This document shows positions 2,144 to 14,990 of a DNA stretch of 15,045 bases, in pieces; the stretch's first letter is position 1; every line of letters starts with the position of its first letter. The notes below the pieces were generated by a model, which searched no databases, was not told the origin of the DNA, and worked only from the letters and a program-made list of their open reading frames with translations. The stretch covers positions 1 to 15,045 of the forward strand of contig JAITTM010000138.1 in NCBI GenBank assembly GCA_031286975.1, given 5' to 3'. Source of the stretch: Coriobacteriales bacterium. GTDB lineage: Bacteria; Actinomycetota; Coriobacteriia; Coriobacteriales; UBA8131. The position numbers were made by a program, and so were the translations under genes.

Positions 2144-3130
2144 ATGAAACGAATCACCGCATTGCTACTGGCCATCGCACTGCTCGCGCTGCCCCTGGGA
2201 GGCTGTGGCAGTCCTGCGCCCACGTCCACGCCCGACCCCGAGCCCACTGCCAGCAACCCCACAGAGTCCGAGACTCCTACGCCTGGCCCCGTGACCTTTA
2301 CCGATGATCTTGGCAACGAGGTGAGCGTTGATAATCCCCAGCGCGTTATCGCCACGCTTTCGAGCTTTGCCCAGACCTGGCAGCTTGCCGGAGGCCAGAA
2401 CCTCGTGGGCCTCACCGAGGACGCCCAGACTGAGGGCAAGGTCGAGATTCCCGCCGACGTGCAGTACGTGGGCACCTATGACACGCTCAACCTCGAGCAG
2501 ATCATCGCGCTTGAGCCCGACCTCGTTATTCTCTCCGCAGCCCCCCGCTACAAGCAGACCGATCTGCAAGAGGCCCTCAAAGGCGCCGGTATCAACTTTG
2601 CCTACTTTAATGTGACGCATTTTGAGGATTATCTCCGCATGCTTAAGGTCTTTACCGACATCACCGCCCGCCCCGATCTCTATGATGTGAACGGCGAGGC
2701 TGTGCAGGAGAGGGTCAACGCCATCCTGGCTCAGGTTCCCGTTGCTTCGGGCGAGAAGCCCACGGTGTTCTTCCTTATCACTGAGTCGCGGGGCACCCGT
2801 GTGCAGAATGGCGAGACCATGCCCGGACGCATCCTCACCGAGCTGGGAGCCGAGAATCTTGCTGACACAAACCCCAGCCTGCTGAGTGAGTTCTCGCTCG
2901 AGGGCCTTATTGCGGCAGAGCCCGACTACATTTTTGTGCTCCCCATGGGCAACAGCGCAGAGGCCACCGCGGCAAACGTGGCCACCCTTGAGGGCAACCC
3001 CGCCTGGGGCGACATCAAGGCAGTCAAGGACGGCAAGTACTTCAAGGTCGATCTGGAGCACTTTATGTACAAGCCCAACAACCTTTGGGACGAGAGTTAC
3101 CAGATACTCTTTGACGACCTGTACAAGTAG
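2144..3130 (+). CDS. ABC transporter substrate-binding lipoprotein (iron/siderophore/tetrapyrrole/B12 class)
   Basis: This 328-residue secreted lipoprotein is the extracellular receptor of the importer encoded by the next two genes. The signal peptide ends in the lipobox L18-G-G-C21. A Pro/Thr/Ser-rich linker (about 22-50) then leads into a Peripla_BP_2 (class III, FepB/BtuF-like) domain. That domain shows the usual opening V-T-F-T-D-D-L-G-N-E-V (50-60) with N-P-Q-R-V-I (64-69), followed by the L-E-Q-I-I-A-L-E-P-D-L-V-I segment that precedes the interlobe helix and the second-lobe L-E-G-L-I-A-A-E-P-D-Y-I-F-V. GAGGAGGA at 2132-2139 fixes the ATG start. The fold does not reveal the ligand. The neighbouring heme-type radical SAM gene favours heme, an iron chelate or a corrinoid, and this is inference. 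Stem-loops directly downstream may raise its level over the membrane subunits. Confidence 0.9.
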   Translation: MKRITALLLAIALLALPLGGCGSPAPTSTPDPEPTASNPTESETPTPGPVTFTDDLGNEVSVDNPQRVIATLSSFAQTWQLAGGQNLVGLTEDAQTEGKVEIPADVQYVGTYDTLNLEQIIALEPDLVILSAAPRYKQTDLQEALKGAGINFAYFNVTHFEDYLRMLKVFTDITARPDLYDVNGEAVQERVNAILAQVPVASGEKPTVFFLITESRGTRVQNGETMPGRILTELGAENLADTNPSLLSEFSLEGLIAAEPDYIFVLPMGNSAEATAANVATLEGNPAWGDIKAVKDGKYFKVDLEHFMYKPNNLWDESYQILFDDLYK

Positions 3131-3151
3131 TGACAGTATAAAACCCAGGAT

Positions 3152-3211
3152 ATCCTGCGCGGCGCAAAGCCAAGTCGCAGGATCTGCCTGGATGCCTGAT
3201 AGCTCAGGCAT
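3152..3211 (+). promoter_or_regulatory. Two tandem stem-loops between binding-protein and permease genes
   Basis: The first stem pairs ATCCTGCG (3152-3159) with CGCAGGAT (3176-3183) and contains an inner GGC/GCC helix (3161-3163 with 3169-3171). The second pairs ATGCCTGA (3192-3199) with TCAGGCAT (3204-3211) around a TAGC loop. Both are perfect eight-base stems with no U-run after them. In binding-protein-dependent ABC operons such intergenic stems often protect the upstream mRNA from 3' decay or partly stop polymerase, giving more binding protein than permease. That role is inferred here from position and structure. Confidence 0.7.
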
Positions 3212-3235
3212 TCGTGCACCAAGGAAGTCAAACGA

Positions 3236-4273
3236 TTGAGCAGGCAACAGCAACAAGAGCAGCAAACAAGGTCTCCCAAAACCAGGATGCGCCGAGCGGC
3301 TATCCTGGTGGGGAGCCTTGTTGTCCTGTTGCTTGTGAGCTTTCTTGGGCTCGGTTTTGGTTCGAGCTCGCTTTCGCCTGTCGATCTGTTCCAGATGCTC
3401 ACCGGCAGCACTGACAATACCACCACGCAGACCATCTTTGTCAATATCCGCCTGCCTCGCGTCCTGGGAGCCCTCCTTGCCGGCGCGGCGCTTGCGGTTT
3501 CTGGCTGCATCATCCAGGCTGTTCTCAACAATCCGCTCGCCAGCCCTAACATCATCGGTGTCAACACGGGTGCGGGGCTTGCGGTGCTGGCGGTTTCGGC
3601 GCTGTTTCCCGCACTGTTGTTCTTGCTGCCGCTGGCTGCTTTTTTTGGCGCGCTAGCCGCGGCGCTCATCATCATGGGCATCGCCACCGGCGGGGGAGTG
3701 TCGCGGCTTACGCTGGTGCTCGCCGGTATCGCCATAACCACGATCTTCACCGCAGGCATGAACGCCGTTCTCATCATCTATCCCGATGCCTACGTGGGTG
3801 CCGGTACCTTTTTGGTGGGAGGCCTCTCGGGTTTGACGCTTGAGCGAATCACGGCACCCTTCATCTACATCCTCATCGGCCTGGTGCTTGCCTTTATCAG
3901 CGGCAAGGCACTCAATATCATCTCATTGGGAGAAGAGACGGCGCAAGCGCTGGGCATGAACGTCAACCTGCGGCGCTTCCTCCTTATCGCGCTTGCGGCC
4001 CTGCTGGCTGGCGCCGCCGTGAGTTTTGCGGGGCTGCTGGGTTTTGTGGGCCTCATCGTGCCGCACGTGGGGCGCTACCTGCTGGGTCCCGACAACCGCC
4101 TGCTCCTGCCGGCCAGCGCCGTGATAGGAGCCGTGTTTGTAGCGGCCTGCGACCTCTGTTCGCGCGTGGTGTTCGCCCCCTACGAGATGCCGGTAGGCAT
4201 CTGCATGGCTCTCATAGGCGGCCCCTTCTTCATCTTCCTCATCATCAGATATCGGAAGAGCAGCTATGATTAG
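3236..4273 (+). CDS. FecCD-family ABC transporter permease
   Basis: This 345-residue polytopic inner-membrane subunit belongs to the FecCD/BtuC family, which imports iron-siderophores, heme or cobalamin. Family hallmarks are I71-R-L-P-R-V-L-G-A-L-L-A-G-A-A-L-A-V-S-G, then Q-A-V-L-x-N-P-L-A-S-P-x-I-I-G-V-x-T-G-A-G (94-114), the L-G-E-E-T-A-Q-A-L-G-M coupling segment (231-241) and G-L-I-V-P-H-V-G-R (272-280). About ten membrane segments are expected in the family, and the length is normal. The start is TTG at 3236 with a weak AAGGAAG about nine bases upstream; the only nearby ATG (3287, residue 18) lacks a good site and would still leave TM1 intact. The first 20 residues are Gln/Arg-rich and cytoplasmic. 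The stop overlaps the start of a mini-frame that leads into the ATPase gene. Confidence 0.92.
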   Translation: MSRQQQQEQQTRSPKTRMRRAAILVGSLVVLLLVSFLGLGFGSSSLSPVDLFQMLTGSTDNTTTQTIFVNIRLPRVLGALLAGAALAVSGCIIQAVLNNPLASPNIIGVNTGAGLAVLAVSALFPALLFLLPLAAFFGALAAALIIMGIATGGGVSRLTLVLAGIAITTIFTAGMNAVLIIYPDAYVGAGTFLVGGLSGLTLERITAPFIYILIGLVLAFISGKALNIISLGEETAQALGMNVNLRRFLLIALAALLAGAAVSFAGLLGFVGLIVPHVGRYLLGPDNRLLLPASAVIGAVFVAACDLCSRVVFAPYEMPVGICMALIGGPFFIFLIIRYRKSSYD

Positions 4274-4331
4274 CGAGAAGACCATGCCCCCGTCCAGCCA
4301 GGACTCGCCCTCTTGCGGGAGGACGCGATGA
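4266..4331 (+). CDS. Possible 21-residue coupling mini-ORF between permease and ATPase genes
   Basis: An ATG at 4266-4268 overlaps the permease stop (TAG at 4271-4273). Its frame of 21 sense codons ends in TGA at 4329-4331, overlapping the ATPase ATG (4328-4330) as ATGA. A weak GGAAGAG lies at 4254-4260. The peptide (MISEKTMPPSSQDSPSCGRTR) has no recognisable domain. The neat double overlap suggests a cistron whose translation carries ribosomes across the 54-base gap, but it may be chance. The ATPase has its own good ribosome binding site. Confidence 0.25.
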   Translation: MISEKTMPPSSQDSPSCGRTR

Positions 4332-5092
4332 TCGAGCTGCGCGATGCGACGTTCACCTACAACCACAAACCCTTTATCGACGGCCTGTCGCTCAAACTCG
4401 AGACGGGGCAGATATCCACCATCATCGGGCCAAACGGTTGCGGCAAGTCGACGCTGGTCAAGCTTATCAGCCGCCAACTGCACCCGCAGCACGGCTCTGT
4501 GCTGCTCGATGGACACGACATCCGCCACCTCAAGACGCGCGACTTTGCCCGCCAGGTGGCGCTGCTGGCGCAAAGCAGCTTCGTGCCCAACATGGAGGTC
4601 GAGCAACTGGTGCTCTGCGGCCGCTACCCGCACCAGAGCTTTGTCTCAGCGGCCTCGCCGGATGATCGCCGCCTCGTTGAGGACGCCCTCAGCCTCACCG
4701 GAGCCATCGCCTTCAGGGAGAAGAACATACGCAACCTCAGCGGCGGCGAGCGCCAAAAGGTGTTCTTGGCGATGGCGCTTGCCCAGGACACCCGCGTCAT
4801 CGTGCTTGACGAACCCACGTCCTACCTGGACATCCATGCCTGTCAGGACGTGATGCAACTGGTGCAGCGGCTCAACACCGAGCTGGGCAAGACCATCATC
4901 ATGGTGCTGCACGACCTGCAAAACGCCCTGCACTACTCCCACAACATCCTGGTGATGCAAAAGGGAGCCATCATCCAAAGCGGCTCCGCAGAAAAGATTG
5001 TCGCCTCAAACGCCATAGAAGAAGCCTTCCAGATCAATCTCAAATGCTTTTGGGAGAATGGCAACCCCTACTACGCCTTTACCGCCCGATAA
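4328..5092 (+). CDS. ABC transporter ATPase (FepC/FhuC/BtuD type)
   Basis: This 254-residue cytoplasmic ATPase powers the importer formed with the permease and lipoprotein just upstream. All the motifs are present: Walker A G34-P-N-G-C-G-K-S-T42, Q-loop Q82, signature L137-S-G-G-E-R-Q, Walker B V-I-V-L-D161-E-P with S-Y-L-D as D-loop, and the switch histidine H195. The length is normal for the family. The ATG at 4328 is preceded by GGGAGG (4317-4322) at five bases. An in-frame TTG at 4313 would overlap that site and is rejected. It is the last gene of the plus-strand module; a stem-loop and U-rich tract follow directly at 5103-5130. Confidence 0.93.
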   Translation: MIELRDATFTYNHKPFIDGLSLKLETGQISTIIGPNGCGKSTLVKLISRQLHPQHGSVLLDGHDIRHLKTRDFARQVALLAQSSFVPNMEVEQLVLCGRYPHQSFVSAASPDDRRLVEDALSLTGAIAFREKNIRNLSGGERQKVFLAMALAQDTRVIVLDEPTSYLDIHACQDVMQLVQRLNTELGKTIIMVLHDLQNALHYSHNILVMQKGAIIQSGSAEKIVASNAIEEAFQINLKCFWENGNPYYAFTAR

Positions 5093-6538: not shown

Positions 6539-7075
6539 ATGGGTAAAGGATTCGGGTTTGGTTCATTTGTGCTTGGCGGACTGGTGGGTGCGGCACTCGG
6601 TTTGCTGTATGCTCCCAAGCCTGGCGTGGAGACGCGCGCAGAGGTTGCGGAGAAGATCGACGAGCTCTGGGGTCAGAGCCAAACCATCTACAATCAGAGT
6701 GTCACCAAAATCCAGGAGACCGTTGCCAACGTACAGCCGGTAATCAAGAAGCAGAACGACGAGTTGCGCGAGAAGATCCAGAGCGCCCGCACGCTCATTG
6801 CCGATCAGGTTGCCAAGAATGCCGTTGCGGCGCGCGATGCCATCAACGACAAGGTGCCGGTAGCCGCCGAGAAGGTCAGTCAGGTAGCCGACGTGGTGCG
6901 CGGCCAGATTGACAACGCTGCGTCCGCCCTCAGATCCAAGGCAGCCGCCGTGGCTGAAGGGGACGCCGTTGAGGCAGCGGCATCGGCAGCGTATGCGGCG
7001 GCAGGCGAAGCAGCCCCCGCGACGGCAACAGCGAAACAAGCCCCTGCTGGCGAATCCGCACCAGCAGCCCAATAG
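6539..7075 (+). CDS. YtxH-like membrane-anchored protein
   Basis: This 178-residue protein has an N-terminal glycine-rich hydrophobic helix (F9-V-L-G-G-L-V-G-A-A-L-G-L-L-Y) and the A-P-K-P-G-x-E-T-R continuation (25-33) that defines the YtxH family (Gram-positive membrane proteins, several stress-related). The middle (34-140) is a long run of charged and amphipathic heptad-like helices. The tail (141-178) is Ala/Glu/Pro low complexity. GGAGG at 6528-6532, six bases before the ATG, fixes the start. It is the first gene of a three-gene operon with the PRC-barrel and deacetylase genes, suggesting a cell-envelope or membrane-surface role. Biochemical function is unknown for the family in general. 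Confidence 0.82.
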   Translation: MGKGFGFGSFVLGGLVGAALGLLYAPKPGVETRAEVAEKIDELWGQSQTIYNQSVTKIQETVANVQPVIKKQNDELREKIQSARTLIADQVAKNAVAARDAINDKVPVAAEKVSQVADVVRGQIDNAASALRSKAAAVAEGDAVEAAASAAYAAAGEAAPATATAKQAPAGESAPAAQ

Positions 7076-7093
7076 AACGGCGGTATATCTGTC

Positions 7094-7891
7094 GTGCGTA
7101 GCACGAAGGAAATGCGCGGCGCCCGCGTAGTGGGTGGCAGAAGCGGCAGGCGCAGGATCGGCAAGGTTCTGCGCGCTGTTTTTCACCCTCAGACCTTCAA
7201 CCTGGTTGGCTACCTGGTCAAGCAGCCTGATTTGCTACTCATGTTCAAGCGCGGTGACCGTTTTTTGGCCTACGACTCGTTCAGGGTGGTTGACGGGCGC
7301 ATTGTGGGCACTACCAACAAGGACTCCTGGGACGAGTTGGCATGCAAGCGCCTGGGCATCGACTTTGACACCTGTCTTCTGCTCGAAGGCATGCCGCTCA
7401 TCACCGCGGGCGGCACGGAGCTCGGTTCCGCTGACTCGGTCGAGTATGACGAGCGTACGGGCAAGACCAAGGAGCTGGTTGTAACAGGCGGCGTGGCCGC
7501 CAAGGCGCTGTTGGGCGAGATGCGCATACCTAAGAAGCTCTTGGTCAAGTACCATGAAGGTTCGGTGGTCGTGAGCAACGAGGTTCTTGGCATCACAGCC
7601 GAGGGCGGCTTGGCGGCTAAAGCGGGCGAGGGCGTTGCCATCGCGAGCAGCAAGCTCTCAGAGGTGGGCGAGCAGGCAGGCAAGGTTTTCTCCAAAACGG
7701 GAAAAGCAGCCAGCAAAGCCCTTTCAGAAACCGGAAAGACGGCCAGCAAAGCCCTCTCAAAAACGGGAAAGGTGGCAGGTAGAGCCGTCAACAAGGGCGC
7801 CTACTCGCTGGGCAGGCAACTGAGCAGGAGCAAGGGCATGTTTGCGGCATTCAAAGAGGAGTACGACAAGGAAGTCAAGAAGAAAAAATGA
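7094..7891 (+). CDS. PRC-barrel domain protein with C-terminal repeats
   Basis: This is a 265-residue basic protein. Two PRC-barrel-like units are seen at about 20-90 (I22-G-K-V-L then L-V-G-Y-L-V, F-L-A-Y-D-S-F-R-V-V) and about 105-165 (E-L-G-S-A-D-S-V-E-Y-D onward). PRC barrels occur in RimM and photosynthetic reaction-centre H subunits and mediate protein or RNA contacts. Residues 199-231 are three 11-residue repeats of the form [FL]-S-x-T-G-K-x-A-x-x-A, and the last residues are KKKK. There is no signal peptide or membrane segment. The GTG at 7094 lies 18 bases after the YtxH stop with a weak GGCGG; an ATG at 7112 is the alternative. The stop TGA shares ATGA with the deacetylase start, so these two genes are translationally coupled. 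It may bridge the membrane proteins on either side of it in the operon. Confidence 0.72.
   Translation: MRSTKEMRGARVVGGRSGRRRIGKVLRAVFHPQTFNLVGYLVKQPDLLLMFKRGDRFLAYDSFRVVDGRIVGTTNKDSWDELACKRLGIDFDTCLLLEGMPLITAGGTELGSADSVEYDERTGKTKELVVTGGVAAKALLGEMRIPKKLLVKYHEGSVVVSNEVLGITAEGGLAAKAGEGVAIASSKLSEVGEQAGKVFSKTGKAASKALSETGKTASKALSKTGKVAGRAVNKGAYSLGRQLSRSKGMFAAFKEEYDKEVKKKK
7688..7786 (+). repeat. Three tandem 33-base units in the PRC-barrel gene
   Basis: Units run 7688-7720, 7721-7753 and 7754-7786 and encode FSKTGKAASKA, LSETGKTASKA and LSKTGKVAGRA. The DNA is similar between units (shared GCCAGCAAAGCCC blocks at 7709-7721 and 7742-7754), pointing to fairly recent internal duplication. Copy number may vary between strains. 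Confidence 0.8.
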
Positions 7892-11585: not shown

Positions 11586-13112
11586 TTACCCAATGCCCAG
11601 TATCTGCATTACCAGCAGGATGGCGGTTAGTACGGCGACCACCACGATTGTCAGGTTGCTGAGCACGTTGGCAAACAGCCTGTTGCGATACTGACCCATG
11701 AGGCGCTTATTGTTGATGAGCCGGATGAGAAACACCAGCAGCACCGGCAACAGGATGCCGTTGACAAACTGCGCGATGAGCATGATGGACATGAGATTGA
11801 TGCCCGGCAATAGAACGATCACGCAGCTTATGATGATGATGAAGGTGAAGATGCCCTTGAACGCCGGTGCCTCGCTCCAGCTGCGGTCGACGCCGCGCTC
11901 CCAGCCAAAGGCCTCGCAGATAGCGTACGAGGTAGTGAGTGGCAGGATGCAGGCCGCCAAGAATGAGGCCCCCACCAGGCCGATACCAAAAAGCTGCTTG
12001 GCATAGACTCCCACGATGGGGGCAAGGGCGTTGGCTGCGCTCTCGGCATCCACCACGACGATGCCCTGCGAATAGAGCACTGTACCGGTGGTGATGATGA
12101 TGAACCACACCACCAGGCAGGCCACAACCGCGCCAGAGATTACGTCGACCCGTTGCAGCACCAGGTTCTTGATACTCACGCCCTTCTCTACCACGTTGCT
12201 CTGACCAAAGAAGATCATCCAGGGGGCGATGGTGGTGCCAATCAGGGCGATTATCAGCGCGAAGAAGCTTTTGTCAAAGACGATCTGCGGCACAACGGTG
12301 CTCACCGCCACGTCGCCCCAATCGGGCTCGCTCAAAAAGGCGGCAGCCACATAGGTGAGAAAGACGAGGCTTATCACCATGAAGATCTTCTCGATGCGCT
12401 TGTAGGTACCGCCCATGATGAGCGCCCAAACGGCCAGCCCCGCAACGGGAACGCTGATGTATTTGTTCACGCCAAACAGCTCCGCGCCCGCCGCCACGCC
12501 GGCAAACTCGCTCAGCGAGGTGCCCGTGTTGGCGATGAGCAACGCCATCATGGCAAAGGCTGCCAGGCGGATGCCAAAGTTCTCGCGGATAAGGGCGGCA
12601 AAGCCCTTGCCTGTCTGCGCCCCAAGCCGCGCGGCCGATTCTTGTACGATCATGAGAAAGATCATGGCGATAGGGATGGTCCAAAGCGCCGCGTATCCAT
12701 AGGAGGCACCCGCCACACTGAAGGTCGAGATGCCACCGGCATCATTGCCCGCCAGCTCCGCGATGACTCCTGGCCCCATGGCCGCCAGCAGCACAAAGAG
12801 GTACCGCTTCTTTTTGGGCGCCTTGGGCGCACTGGGCGCAGTGGGCGCATTGGATGTTGTCGCCGCAGCCGCAGCCGCCGTAGCCGCAGCCGCCGTAGCC
12901 GCAGCCGCAGGGGCAGGGGCAGCCGCCGTAGCCGCAGCCGCAGGGGCAGCCGCAGGGGCAGACAAAGACTCCGGTGGCTGCGGGTGCTGCGGGTGCTGCA
13001 GGGAGACGGCCGTCTGTTGCGCCTGCTGCTGGGAGACGGCCGTGGTGCCATCGGCTCCGCCGCTTTGCTGGGCTGCTGGGCTGCTTGCCGCTACTCGCTC
13101 GGTTTTCTCCAT
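11586..13112 (-). CDS. NRAMP-family divalent metal transporter, NRMT (Mg2+) type by motif
   Basis: This 508-residue membrane transporter has about eleven helices from residue 103. The fold is NRAMP: G113-P-G-V-I-A-E starts TM1, and V-Q-E-S-A-A-R-L-G-A-Q-T-G-K follows TM2. The metal-site motifs are altered. TM1 has D124-A-G-G127 where Mn/Fe transporters have D-P-G-N. TM6 has G292-T-T-I-A-P-W298 where they have G-A-T-V-M-P-H, so the metal-binding methionine and asparagine are absent. These are the kinds of changes known from NRAMP-related magnesium transporters (NRMTs), so Mg2+ is the likelier substrate than Mn2+. Residues 1-102 are a low-complexity Ala/Pro/Gln tail, absent from typical members. 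The ATG at 13112 with GGGTGG six bases upstream is preferred to a GTG at 13121. Twelve bases separate it from the stop of the PRC/MgtE-like gene, so the two form an operon. Confidence 0.87.
   Translation of the reverse strand: MEKTERVAASSPAAQQSGGADGTTAVSQQQAQQTAVSLQHPQHPQPPESLSAPAAAPAAAATAAAPAPAAAATAAAATAAAAAATTSNAPTAPSAPKAPKKKRYLFVLLAAMGPGVIAELAGNDAGGISTFSVAGASYGYAALWTIPIAMIFLMIVQESAARLGAQTGKGFAALIRENFGIRLAAFAMMALLIANTGTSLSEFAGVAAGAELFGVNKYISVPVAGLAVWALIMGGTYKRIEKIFMVISLVFLTYVAAAFLSEPDWGDVAVSTVVPQIVFDKSFFALIIALIGTTIAPWMIFFGQSNVVEKGVSIKNLVLQRVDVISGAVVACLVVWFIIITTGTVLYSQGIVVVDAESAANALAPIVGVYAKQLFGIGLVGASFLAACILPLTTSYAICEAFGWERGVDRSWSEAPAFKGIFTFIIIISCVIVLLPGINLMSIMLIAQFVNGILLPVLLVFLIRLINNKRLMGQYRNRLFANVLSNLTIVVVAVLTAILLVMQILGIG
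12862..13043. repeat. Low-complexity repeats coding the transporter's N-terminal tail
   Basis: 12862-12960 consists of GCC/GCA/GTA/GGG triplet repeats, including the 15-base unit GCCGCCGTAGCCGCA, and encodes a poly-Ala/Pro stretch on the minus strand. Next to it, CGGGTGCTG is doubled at 12981-12998 (Gln-His-Pro repeat), and GGGAGACGGCCGT recurs at 13001-13013 and 13031-13043 with a 30-base period (TAVS repeat). Such stretches are prone to slippage. Confidence 0.8.
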
Positions 13113-13124
13113 AGCGTCCACCCG

Positions 13125-14990
13125 CTAGGCAACCAGTAGTGTGGCGGTGTAATAGAGGGCGAGCTGAACCAGCAGGCCAAAGCCCATCATCAGCAGGGTG
13201 AAGGCGGTGCTGCTTGGCACCTTGCTCCTGTCCAGTCGTCGGCGGGCGATCACCGTTACCAGCACGCTGGCGAGTATGGTGGCAAAACAGGCGATGACCG
13301 TGGGAAGAAAGGCGTTGACCAGCGCCACCAGCAGCGCCGGTGCCGAGCTGGCGCTGGCTGCGTCTGCCGCGGCGGGCAGTGCGGCGCTTTGGGTCAAGGC
13401 GGCGGCGAAGGCAAAGAAGGCGAGCGCCACAACCGCGGCAGTCAAAACGCCCACAACAAGATTGCGCAACAGCAGGCGCAGGGCGGTTGCGGTGCTGCCC
13501 ACTGAGCCGTCGTACTCAATCAGGTCGTTGATCGAGAAGGCCACGATGTCATCAGCAATCAGCAGCACAAAGGGCATCAGCACCAAGGCGCCGACAAACT
13601 GGGCAAAGCCACCCGCCAAAGTGATGAGCAGCGTGAGCACCGCCCAAACGATGAACCACAGCTCCCTGCGCAGCAGCCAACGCAGCAGGCTCAAGGCGGT
13701 ATACGACTCGCCGTCCTTGTTGCGCGAGCCGGCACCGGCGATCTGCAGGTCCTCGTCGTGCTCCTCCTCCAAGACATCCAGGGCATCGTCGATGGTCACG
13801 ATGCCCAAGATGGTGTTGTTCTCGTCCACAACTGGCACGGCAAGCAGGTCGTACTTCGAGATGACGTCCGCCACCTCCTCCTGGTCGTCGTCGGGTGAGA
13901 CCGTCATGAGGTCGCGGGTTGCCAGGTCAAAGACGCTGGTGGCGTTGTCTGCCAGCACCAGCGAACGCAGCGAGAGGGCACCTGTCAGTCTGCTGTCGGT
14001 ACCCAGGGTGTACACGTAGTGCACTGTCTCGAGATCCTCGCTCATGCTGCGGATCTTCTCGATGGTTTCGCCCACGCTCTTATCCTCAGGCACCGCTACG
14101 AACTCCGGCGTCATGATGCCGCCCGCGGTCTTCTCCTTATAACCCAAAAGCGAGCGGATACGACGCTGGTCTTGCACGCCCATGAGCCAGAGCAGCTTCT
14201 CGGCCTTCTCGTAGGGCAGGTCGCCCAGGATGTCGGCGGCGTCGTCGGGATCCATCTGCGCGAGCAGCTCGCTGGCGCGGCGCTCGCTCAGGTCGTCGAG
14301 GATGTCAGCCTGGTATTCGTCCTCCAGCTCTGCGATGGTCTCGGCCGCGCGTTGGTTGTCCAGGTGCTCGAACACCAGGCCGCGCTGCTGCGGATCAAGT
14401 TGCTCCAAGATGTCGGCCACGTCTGCCGGATGCAGCTCGCTTAAGCGCTTATGGGTGACCGAGAGCTTGACGGCGCTCAGGTCACGGTCGACCAGCTCCA
14501 TGTAGTTCCACGCGATGATGTTCTCTTCGAGCGGGCGACCAAAGAGTCGGGCAATCGCCTGTGTCGCGCGTTCAAGCGCGGGCGAGAGCCCTCGCAGCAT
14601 GCCGCGCGCGCCCACCTCGGCACCCAGCAGGCGCAGCTGCCTGTTGCTCTGTGAGAGCTTGAGGTCGTTGACGCGCACCACCTTGAGACCCTGCGTGTCC
14701 ACGATCTGTTTGTTGAGAAGATCGCGGGCAAGCAGGAGCTCGTCGGGTTGCAGGTAGGAGAAGCGGATGTCTTTCGCTGGCTTGTTCAGCGTGATGCGGT
14801 CGTCGTCAAAACTGGCGACGTATTTGCGCCACGAGACCATGAAAGGCGTCTTGGACGGCCCGAGAAAAGCCAGTGAGGTGATGCGCGGGAAGACCTCGCC
14901 GGTCTGGATGGCCAGGTCGCTGATGCGGCCGATTTCCTCGCCATCGGAGTCGAGCACCGGCTTTCCCAGCATTTGGGAGAGATATAACAT
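13125..14990 (-). CDS. PRC-barrel / MgtE-N / CBS-pair protein with divergent membrane domain (MgtE-like)
   Basis: This 621-residue protein is built like MgtE but longer at the N-terminus. Two PRC-barrel-like units occupy about 1-75 and 85-125. The MgtE N-domain, helical repeats of the type H187-P-A-D-V-A-D-I-L-E-Q-L and P248-D-D-A-A-D-I-L, spans about 183-285. A CBS pair follows (about 288-410; T288-A-G-G-I-M-T-P opens CBS1, D400-D-A-L-D ends CBS2), the Mg2+-sensing part in MgtE. The membrane domain (about 432-621) has some five helices but lacks MgtE hallmarks: the G-N-x-G-x-Q motif reads G495-S-V-G-S-T, and the essential acidic residue of the last helix is not evident in T-L-L-M-M-G-F-G-L-L-V. 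It may be a sensor rather than a channel. The ATG at 14990 has GGAAGGA (15000-15006) nine bases upstream. It is first in an operon with the NRMT-type transporter. Confidence 0.82.
   Translation of the reverse strand: MLYLSQMLGKPVLDSDGEEIGRISDLAIQTGEVFPRITSLAFLGPSKTPFMVSWRKYVASFDDDRITLNKPAKDIRFSYLQPDELLLARDLLNKQIVDTQGLKVVRVNDLKLSQSNRQLRLLGAEVGARGMLRGLSPALERATQAIARLFGRPLEENIIAWNYMELVDRDLSAVKLSVTHKRLSELHPADVADILEQLDPQQRGLVFEHLDNQRAAETIAELEDEYQADILDDLSERRASELLAQMDPDDAADILGDLPYEKAEKLLWLMGVQDQRRIRSLLGYKEKTAGGIMTPEFVAVPEDKSVGETIEKIRSMSEDLETVHYVYTLGTDSRLTGALSLRSLVLADNATSVFDLATRDLMTVSPDDDQEEVADVISKYDLLAVPVVDENNTILGIVTIDDALDVLEEEHDEDLQIAGAGSRNKDGESYTALSLLRWLLRRELWFIVWAVLTLLITLAGGFAQFVGALVLMPFVLLIADDIVAFSINDLIEYDGSVGSTATALRLLLRNLVVGVLTAAVVALAFFAFAAALTQSAALPAAADAASASSAPALLVALVNAFLPTVIACFATILASVLVTVIARRRLDRSKVPSSTAFTLLMMGFGLLVQLALYYTATLLVA

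Follow-up and report, generated by a model that had tools for sequence, protein, structure and literature searches.

The window analysed here is one whole contig of 15,045 nucleotides (JAITTM010000138.1) from a Coriobacteriales bacterium, the source genome of which is 76% complete, and it carries two adjoining genes that appear to pair a sensor of the MgtE type with an NRMT-type magnesium transporter. Both open reading frames (ORFs) were present at the coordinates given by a first-pass annotation made from the sequence; they are co-directional on the minus strand, as are all the features of the two genes given below, and nearly touch. Gene 1, which lies upstream (13125..14990, 621 amino acids), was resolved from its ORF and from Pfam matches into a PRC-barrel domain, an MgtE_N domain, a CBS pair and what seems to be a degenerate MgtE membrane domain. 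Gene 2 (11586..13121, 511 amino acids from a GTG start) encodes an NRMT-type member of the NRAMP transporters (PF01566, 283.9 bits; 7qia by phmmer, E 1.6e-167). The intergenic gap is 3 nucleotides (nt) to the GTG of gene 2 or 12 nt to an alternative ATG at 13112, for which the 12-base spacing of the first-pass annotation holds.

The sensing modules of gene 1 had been described as MgtE_N and a CBS pair behind two PRC-barrel units. The first PRC-barrel domain was clear (residues 2–73, 14772..14987; PF05239, 45.7 bits), but the second is a possible, weak PRC-like unit (residues 86–127, 14610..14735), scoring 14.7 bits against a cut-off of 21.2; PRC-only relatives align with gene 1 over residues 2–175. 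MgtE_N occupies residues 186–286 (14133..14435; PF03448, 102.7 bits), where E217, D249 and D253 align with the ligands E59, D91 and D95 of Thermus MgtE. The CBS pair at residues ∼291–408 (13767..14120) was matched by PF00571 in two stretches, the better at residues 354–408, and carries E371, D381, D402 and D405 at the columns of E216, D226, D247 and D250. The membrane-proximal acids E413/D414 (13749..13754), before the first membrane helix, align with E258/D259 of the Mg2 and Mg3 sites. Gene 1 is acidic at all 10 positions checked (E59, D91, D95, E216, D226, D247, D250, E255, E258 and D259), and these residues together with the Pfam matches bear out the sensing modules. E216 and E255 we take to be Mg2+ ligands of MgtE. 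The other eight form Mg2+ sites of MgtE according to PMC5882242.

Relatives were aligned to Thermus MgtE in five groups: A, 51 full-length relatives that are NRMT-adjacent or of the same branch (among them L036, on a short contig without NRMT, and L012 and L019, which show only part of NRMT); B, 13 full-length PRC-MgtE proteins encoded away from NRMT; C, nine canonical MgtE proteins; D, 34 NRMT-adjacent sensors without the MgtE membrane domain; and E, two fusions to MgtA. Excluded were partial or duplicate loci, including L023, L025, L037, L042, L074 and L075, and those that contain gene 1 incompletely. D91 and D247 (the Mg4 pair) and D259 were each found in 51/51 of group A and E258 in 50/51, and both E258 and D259 were present in 13/13 of group B. 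The Mg4 pair is near-universal in group D as well (D91 31/34, D247 34/34), but E258 and D259 are kept in only 4/34 and 8/34 of that group and in 0/2 of group E. As these two acids are kept with the membrane domain and mostly lost without it, the coupling of sensor to membrane domain seems still to be under selection where the domain remains.

The last ∼200 residues of gene 1 gave no Pfam match, PF01769 included, and against TIGR00400 (mgtE) the protein scored 226.6 bits over residues 172–578, just below the cut-off of 232.75. The nature of this part (∼residues 438–621, 13128..13679) was assessed by comparing profile hidden Markov models (HMM-HMM comparison) of the membrane domain. The window's branch matched a sister set from the Coriobacteriia with 99.3% probability, and the sister set matched canonical MgtE with 97.7%; the direct comparison of the window's branch with canonical MgtE gave 42.7% and was co-linear over the whole domain. 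A third Coriobacteriia set reached 99.8% against the window's branch and 3.4% against canonical MgtE. The f25 set and group B gave 4.2% and 0.4% with the window's branch, and 99.1% and 99.7% with canonical MgtE. Alignments of NRMT, used as a membrane-protein control, did not exceed 0.2% in four comparisons. The C-terminal part of gene 1 is thus most probably an MgtE membrane domain that has diverged very far, the relationship being seen through the intermediate set.

The residues by which MgtE passes ions are missing from this domain. The columns of the GNxGxQ motif (Thermus 328–333, second transmembrane helix, TM2) are occupied by D480-D-I-V-A-F485 (13536..13553), so that the loss of the motif, as first claimed, stood, although its position did not: the G495-S-V-G-S-T that had been named lies 15 residues downstream. 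The last helix is indeed without an acidic residue, and M602 (13185..13187) takes the place of Asp432, the Mg1 pore ligand in TM5. The Asp432 column is Asp in 9/9 of group C and acidic in 0/51 of group A (M 40, V 7, L 2, G 1, T 1) and 0/13 of group B; Gln333 of the motif is likewise present in 9/9 of group C and absent from every member of A and B. In a set of 152 full-length PRC-MgtE proteins from databases, which includes the window's protein and some of the group loci, not one has an acidic residue at the Asp432 column (M 138, V 6, A 4, I 1, S 1, gap 2). The alignments showed no canonical pore residues at shifted positions. Mutation of Mg1 (Asp432) abolishes Mg2+ conduction in Thermus MgtE (PMC5882242). 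Glycines 325, 328 and 435 are described as its kink points (PMC8104411), and gene 1 has no glycine at the first two columns and retains that at 435.

The domain has also diverged faster than the sensor to which it is joined. Among pairs with 35–45% identity in the sensor, membrane-domain identity was 14.7% in group A (211 pairs) vs 31.4% in canonical MgtE (23 pairs). Membrane-domain identity divided by sensor identity had a median of 0.38 in group A, 0.70 in group B and 0.79 in group C; the excess divergence therefore belongs more to group A than to group B. By alignment, the channel ligands are lost across the PRC-MgtE proteins examined, and gene 1 is probably non-conducting. One PRC-MgtE protein (P0329, 641 amino acids) has a near-intact TM2 motif, SGSAGSQ, and no pore Asp, and may be an intermediate. 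The pore-dead protein L100 matched TIGR00400 above the cut-off (274.3 bits); it and several database names suggest that the automatic label 'Mg2+ transporter MgtE' is wrong for the PRC-MgtE family.

Gene 2 was compared with EleNRMT (7QIA; Ramanadane et al., 2022, PMC8806188), with which it shares 61.7% identity across 413 residues; the next match in the PDB has an E value of 9.8e-21. The rule given for the NRMT site is D-x-G-G in TM1 and, in TM6, Thr and Ala in place of the NRAMP Ala and Met (PMC8806188). The site of gene 2 is intact, with D127 (D55 of EleNRMT; 12741..12743) and G130 in the GNDAGG motif of TM1 and T296-T-I-A299 (12225..12236) in the GTTIAPW of TM6, and its binding-site residues are identical to those of EleNRMT. 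By these residues gene 2 is a member of the NRMT clade, as the first-pass annotation had proposed in calling it an NRAMP relative with a Mg2+-type site. EleNRMT alone transports Mg2+ uncoupled from H+, and its authors cite the inside-negative membrane potential (PMC8806188). The N-terminus of gene 2 is a low-complexity Ala/Pro/Gln tract of ∼100 residues (12822–13121); the complete coriobacterial NRMTs among the loci examined are mostly 400–480 amino acids long.

Conservation of the pairing was surveyed in 296 actinobacterial genomes, 57 of which had a strong NRMT, defined as 290 bits or more against NRAMP. A sensor was adjacent to the strong NRMT, with its aligned stretch within 443 nt, in at least 42 of the 57 genomes, and these pairs span 15 family codes; in two further genomes a sensor fragment adjoins the NRMT (L115, L120). 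No weak NRAMP row had an adjacent sensor (0/45; G008, G085 and G204 were checked within the 10 kb fetched). Not counted were 30 NRAMP rows that scored 163–290 bits, 12 of which have an adjoining sensor, as well as G117 and the fragment G283:C95. Both genes lay on one strand in 122/122 loci carrying both (a redundant set), and in three loci (L157, L158 and L160) the gene order is reversed with adjacency retained. The adjacency of sensor and NRMT is not due to chance, and the partnership put forward by the first-pass annotation is upheld by its conservation across genomes. Five long open frames (G037, G234, G241, G077 and G096) were rejected, their extensions reading as Arg-, His- or Asp-rich sequence of high G+C content; at the first three loci nothing matches gene 1, and in the last two the sensor is a separate ORF.

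In the remaining 13 genomes a pore-dead B-type PRC-MgtE is encoded elsewhere, and direct inspection of each NRMT neighbourhood revealed no full sensor. A PRC-only gene lies directly after NRMT in 12 of these 13 unlinked genomes (L110:5490-6065; L113, L114, L150, L151 and L175–L181), L182 being the one without, and an additional PRC-only gene was found at L117:5693-6283. These stretches are 25.7–30.2% identical to residues ∼1–200 of gene 1 and, where measured, 191–196 amino acids long. The PRC-only gene stays with NRMT where the sensor has moved, which does no more than suggest that the PRC part may be a docking piece for NRMT.

The sensor also occurs in reduced and fused forms. In a tree of 81 sensor rows the Eggerthellaceae-type partners (11 rows, support 100/99) were nested within the full-length Coriobacteriia clade, and their branch has, most simply, lost the membrane domain. 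A single strongly hydrophobic C-terminal helix was present in 14/14 Eggerthellaceae-type proteins of group D (L087, L088, L091 and 11 more, from ∼residue 423 to the end) and in 0/20 of the others. The NRMTs beside these tail-helix partners include ones 95% identical to EleNRMT; the partner of such relatives has a single tail helix, unlike gene 1. In two other actinobacterial genomes a PRC-MgtE_N-CBS sensor 59% identical to that of gene 1 is fused in frame to the P-type Mg2+ ATPase MgtA in a protein of 1317 amino acids (L139:1590-5543 and L140:1778-5731, both on the minus strand; MgtA part, TIGR01524, 1077 bits against a cut-off of 610.75). The same fusion was found in seven near-full-length database proteins (P0121–P0127; 1265–1318 amino acids, 57–100% identity), the first two of which match the copies in the two genomes, and in one shorter protein; six of the seven have a PRC match. 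The fusion sensors fall inside the same large clade (98/99), their exact place in it being unsure (92/93). MgtA fusion belongs to another actinobacterial lineage, and the operon of the window contains no ATPase.

The pairing itself, and the idea of feedback, have been known since 2014. Shin et al. (2014, PMC4072509) reported a homologue of the cytoplasmic domain of MgtE to be encoded at most NrmT loci, and they proposed feedback regulation or a chaperone role for it. Their system resembles the present one in joining an NRAMP-related Mg2+ transporter to an adjacent homologue of that cytoplasmic domain, frequently with M-box control; gene 1 differs in that PRC and a complete MgtE membrane domain with a dead pore are added. 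With Thermus thermophilus MgtE (2YVX) gene 1 shares the MgtE_N-CBS sensor, acids at the same ligand positions and a co-linear, diverged membrane domain; unlike it, gene 1 lacks Asp432, GNxGxQ and glycines 325 and 328, has PRC added and is adjoined by NRMT. A partner gene is not discussed in the searched passages of PMC8806188. No open-licence paper was found that combined PRC-barrel, CBS domain and magnesium, and no later one that tested the partner was found among the titles and opening lines of abstracts listed or in passages of PMC8806188, PMC9606685 and PMC13060092. New here are a partner with a dead channel, the reduction of that partner, the PRC-only genes that accompany NRMT and the fusion to MgtA.

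Magnesium-responsive control was sought as M-box riboswitches, which were detected in 13 of the 50 loci searched (2/13, 9/17 and 2/20 in three sets). They precede the operon, except in L159, where the M-box separates sensor from NRMT, and six of these loci (L024–L028 and L149) have a pore-dead full-length partner. None was found in nine B loci, nor in the window, which has just 55 nt of contig ahead of gene 1. Among 26 genomes of the window's order or class CorA was encoded in 21, including the window's own (contig C201), which rules out NRMT as the sole Mg2+ importer of that genome and indicates that NRMT is rarely the only importer. Only G012 of the 26 lacked CorA, MgtA and MgtE above cut-off; G027 and G196 had no sensor match and weak NRAMP matches only. 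Elsewhere in the window an iron/cobalamin-type ABC importer is encoded at 2144-5089 (Peripla_BP_2, FecCD and ABC_tran genes), and a YtxH-like gene is followed by the gene of a further PRC-barrel protein at 6539-7891.

From these data gene 1 is interpreted as a non-conducting, membrane-anchored Mg2+ sensor, descended from an MgtE ancestor, that feeds back on the NRMT transporter encoded by gene 2; we assign this reading a probability of roughly 0.58. That gene 1 acts on NRMT at all is probable, and the chance that its specific effect is feedback inhibition seems about even; physical contact and the direction of the effect are inferred. As cytoplasmic Mg2+ rises, the MgtE_N/CBS dimer would compact as it does in MgtE, and the compacted sensor would inhibit NRMT through the juxtamembrane helix, with the membrane helices serving as an anchor and the PRC part perhaps as a docking piece. 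We know of no built-in brake in NRMT, and an H+-uncoupled importer in an inside-negative cell would profit from an off-switch. MgtE itself closes when its cytoplasmic domain binds Mg2+ (PMC5882242, PMC8104411).

Several observations count against this reading, beyond those set out with the alternatives they favour. The ATP-site residues of gene 1 are mixed, Y325 and R342 being kept and D188, N203 and F227 changed. Within group A, D226 is not fixed (D 25, N 20, G 5 and S 1 of 51), D95 is replaced by Ala in 7/51 and E59 by Gly or Leu in 4/51. M-boxes were absent from all seven loci searched near the window's branch (L002, L003, L006, L009, L013, L014 and L018). A joined query returned eight proteins with both MgtE_N and NRAMP, but these look mostly like read-throughs or deletions between neighbouring genes: Arg-rich stretches in P0243, P0244, P0246, P0262 and P0263 seem not to be in frame, the membrane domain of P0242 is interrupted by an abrupt junction, and the two parts of P0257 meet at an AGGI common to both; P0245 also carries both domains, and none was counted as a fusion. 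NRMT, moreover, works without a partner. The nrmT genes of Clostridium acetobutylicum complemented a Mg2+-uptake mutant in the absence of the MgtE-like gene (PMC4072509), and EleNRMT acts alone (PMC8806188). In B. subtilis the A. capsulatum NrmT behaved as a Mn2+ transporter, and adding its MgtE-like gene did not improve rescue (PMC4072509). The first-pass annotation had gone on to a strictly split, two-protein uptake system, and these results make that unlikely; since relatives transport without the partner, gene 1 is more likely a modulator of NRMT than half of an uptake system. The observation on which the annotation was built is confirmed and its interpretation partly supported.

Three alternatives were weighed. 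The one that survives best, though unlikely, is that the two genes are merely co-expressed, their adjacency reflecting shared Mg2+ regulation, and that the target of the sensor is CorA or DUF1003 proteins, or that the sensor serves as a general Mg2+/ATP signal protein. M-box riboswitches could give such joint control, CorA is common in the window's order or class, and the sensor gene is not adjacent in 13 of the 57 strong-NRMT genomes, which also tells against feedback on NRMT. So does a distant PRC-MgtE_N-CBS sensor gene that stands beside DUF1003 in two large high-GC genomes, the two loci tested (sensor gene followed by the gene of the DUF1003 membrane protein, L163:3978-4574 and L164:3962-4531; in L163 a Mrp-type ATPase gene also follows). 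Against co-expression alone, the pairing persists over 15 family codes and survives reversal of gene order in three loci, and the covalent sensor::MgtA protein shows a Mg2+ transporter equipped in cis with a sensor from this branch.

A little less likely still is that gene 1 remains a transporter with an altered path, through the TM2 acidic pair D480/D481 and Met602, and that the operon encodes two transporters that work independently and differ in selectivity. The domain is not random: the old Asn329 column holds D, E or N in 135 of the 152 database rows, the 432 column is Met in 138, and E258/D259 are kept. Some ion site in the PRC-MgtE membrane domain may thus persist, a further point against a purely sensory gene 1. 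Asp432 and Gln333 are nevertheless gone from every A and B row, the domain is highly diverged, a mutation at Mg1 abolishes Mg2+ conduction in Thermus MgtE (PMC5882242), and close relatives have exchanged the domain for a single helix while keeping sensor and NRMT. A role in the folding, targeting or turnover of NRMT with no switch of activity, to which the comparably low stability reported for EleNRMT in detergent (PMC8806188) and the retention of a membrane domain or tail helix by all complete Coriobacteriia partners examined lend some weight, is improbable, as it leaves ten acidic Mg2+-ligand positions unexplained and NrmT works in B. subtilis without the partner (PMC4072509).

The role of the MgtE-like gene beside nrmT was left open by Shin et al. 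(2014), and the dead-channel partner, the partners with one tail helix or none, and the sensor::MgtA fusion together constitute a direct experimental series. More tentatively, the PRC-MgtE proteins may be a dead-channel family that serves as a portable governor of Mg2+ transport, acting in trans on NRMT with PRC as the docking piece, in cis on MgtA and perhaps in trans on DUF1003 proteins; the activity of NRMT, that of EleNRMT included, would then normally be set by a partner that was absent from the in vitro work.

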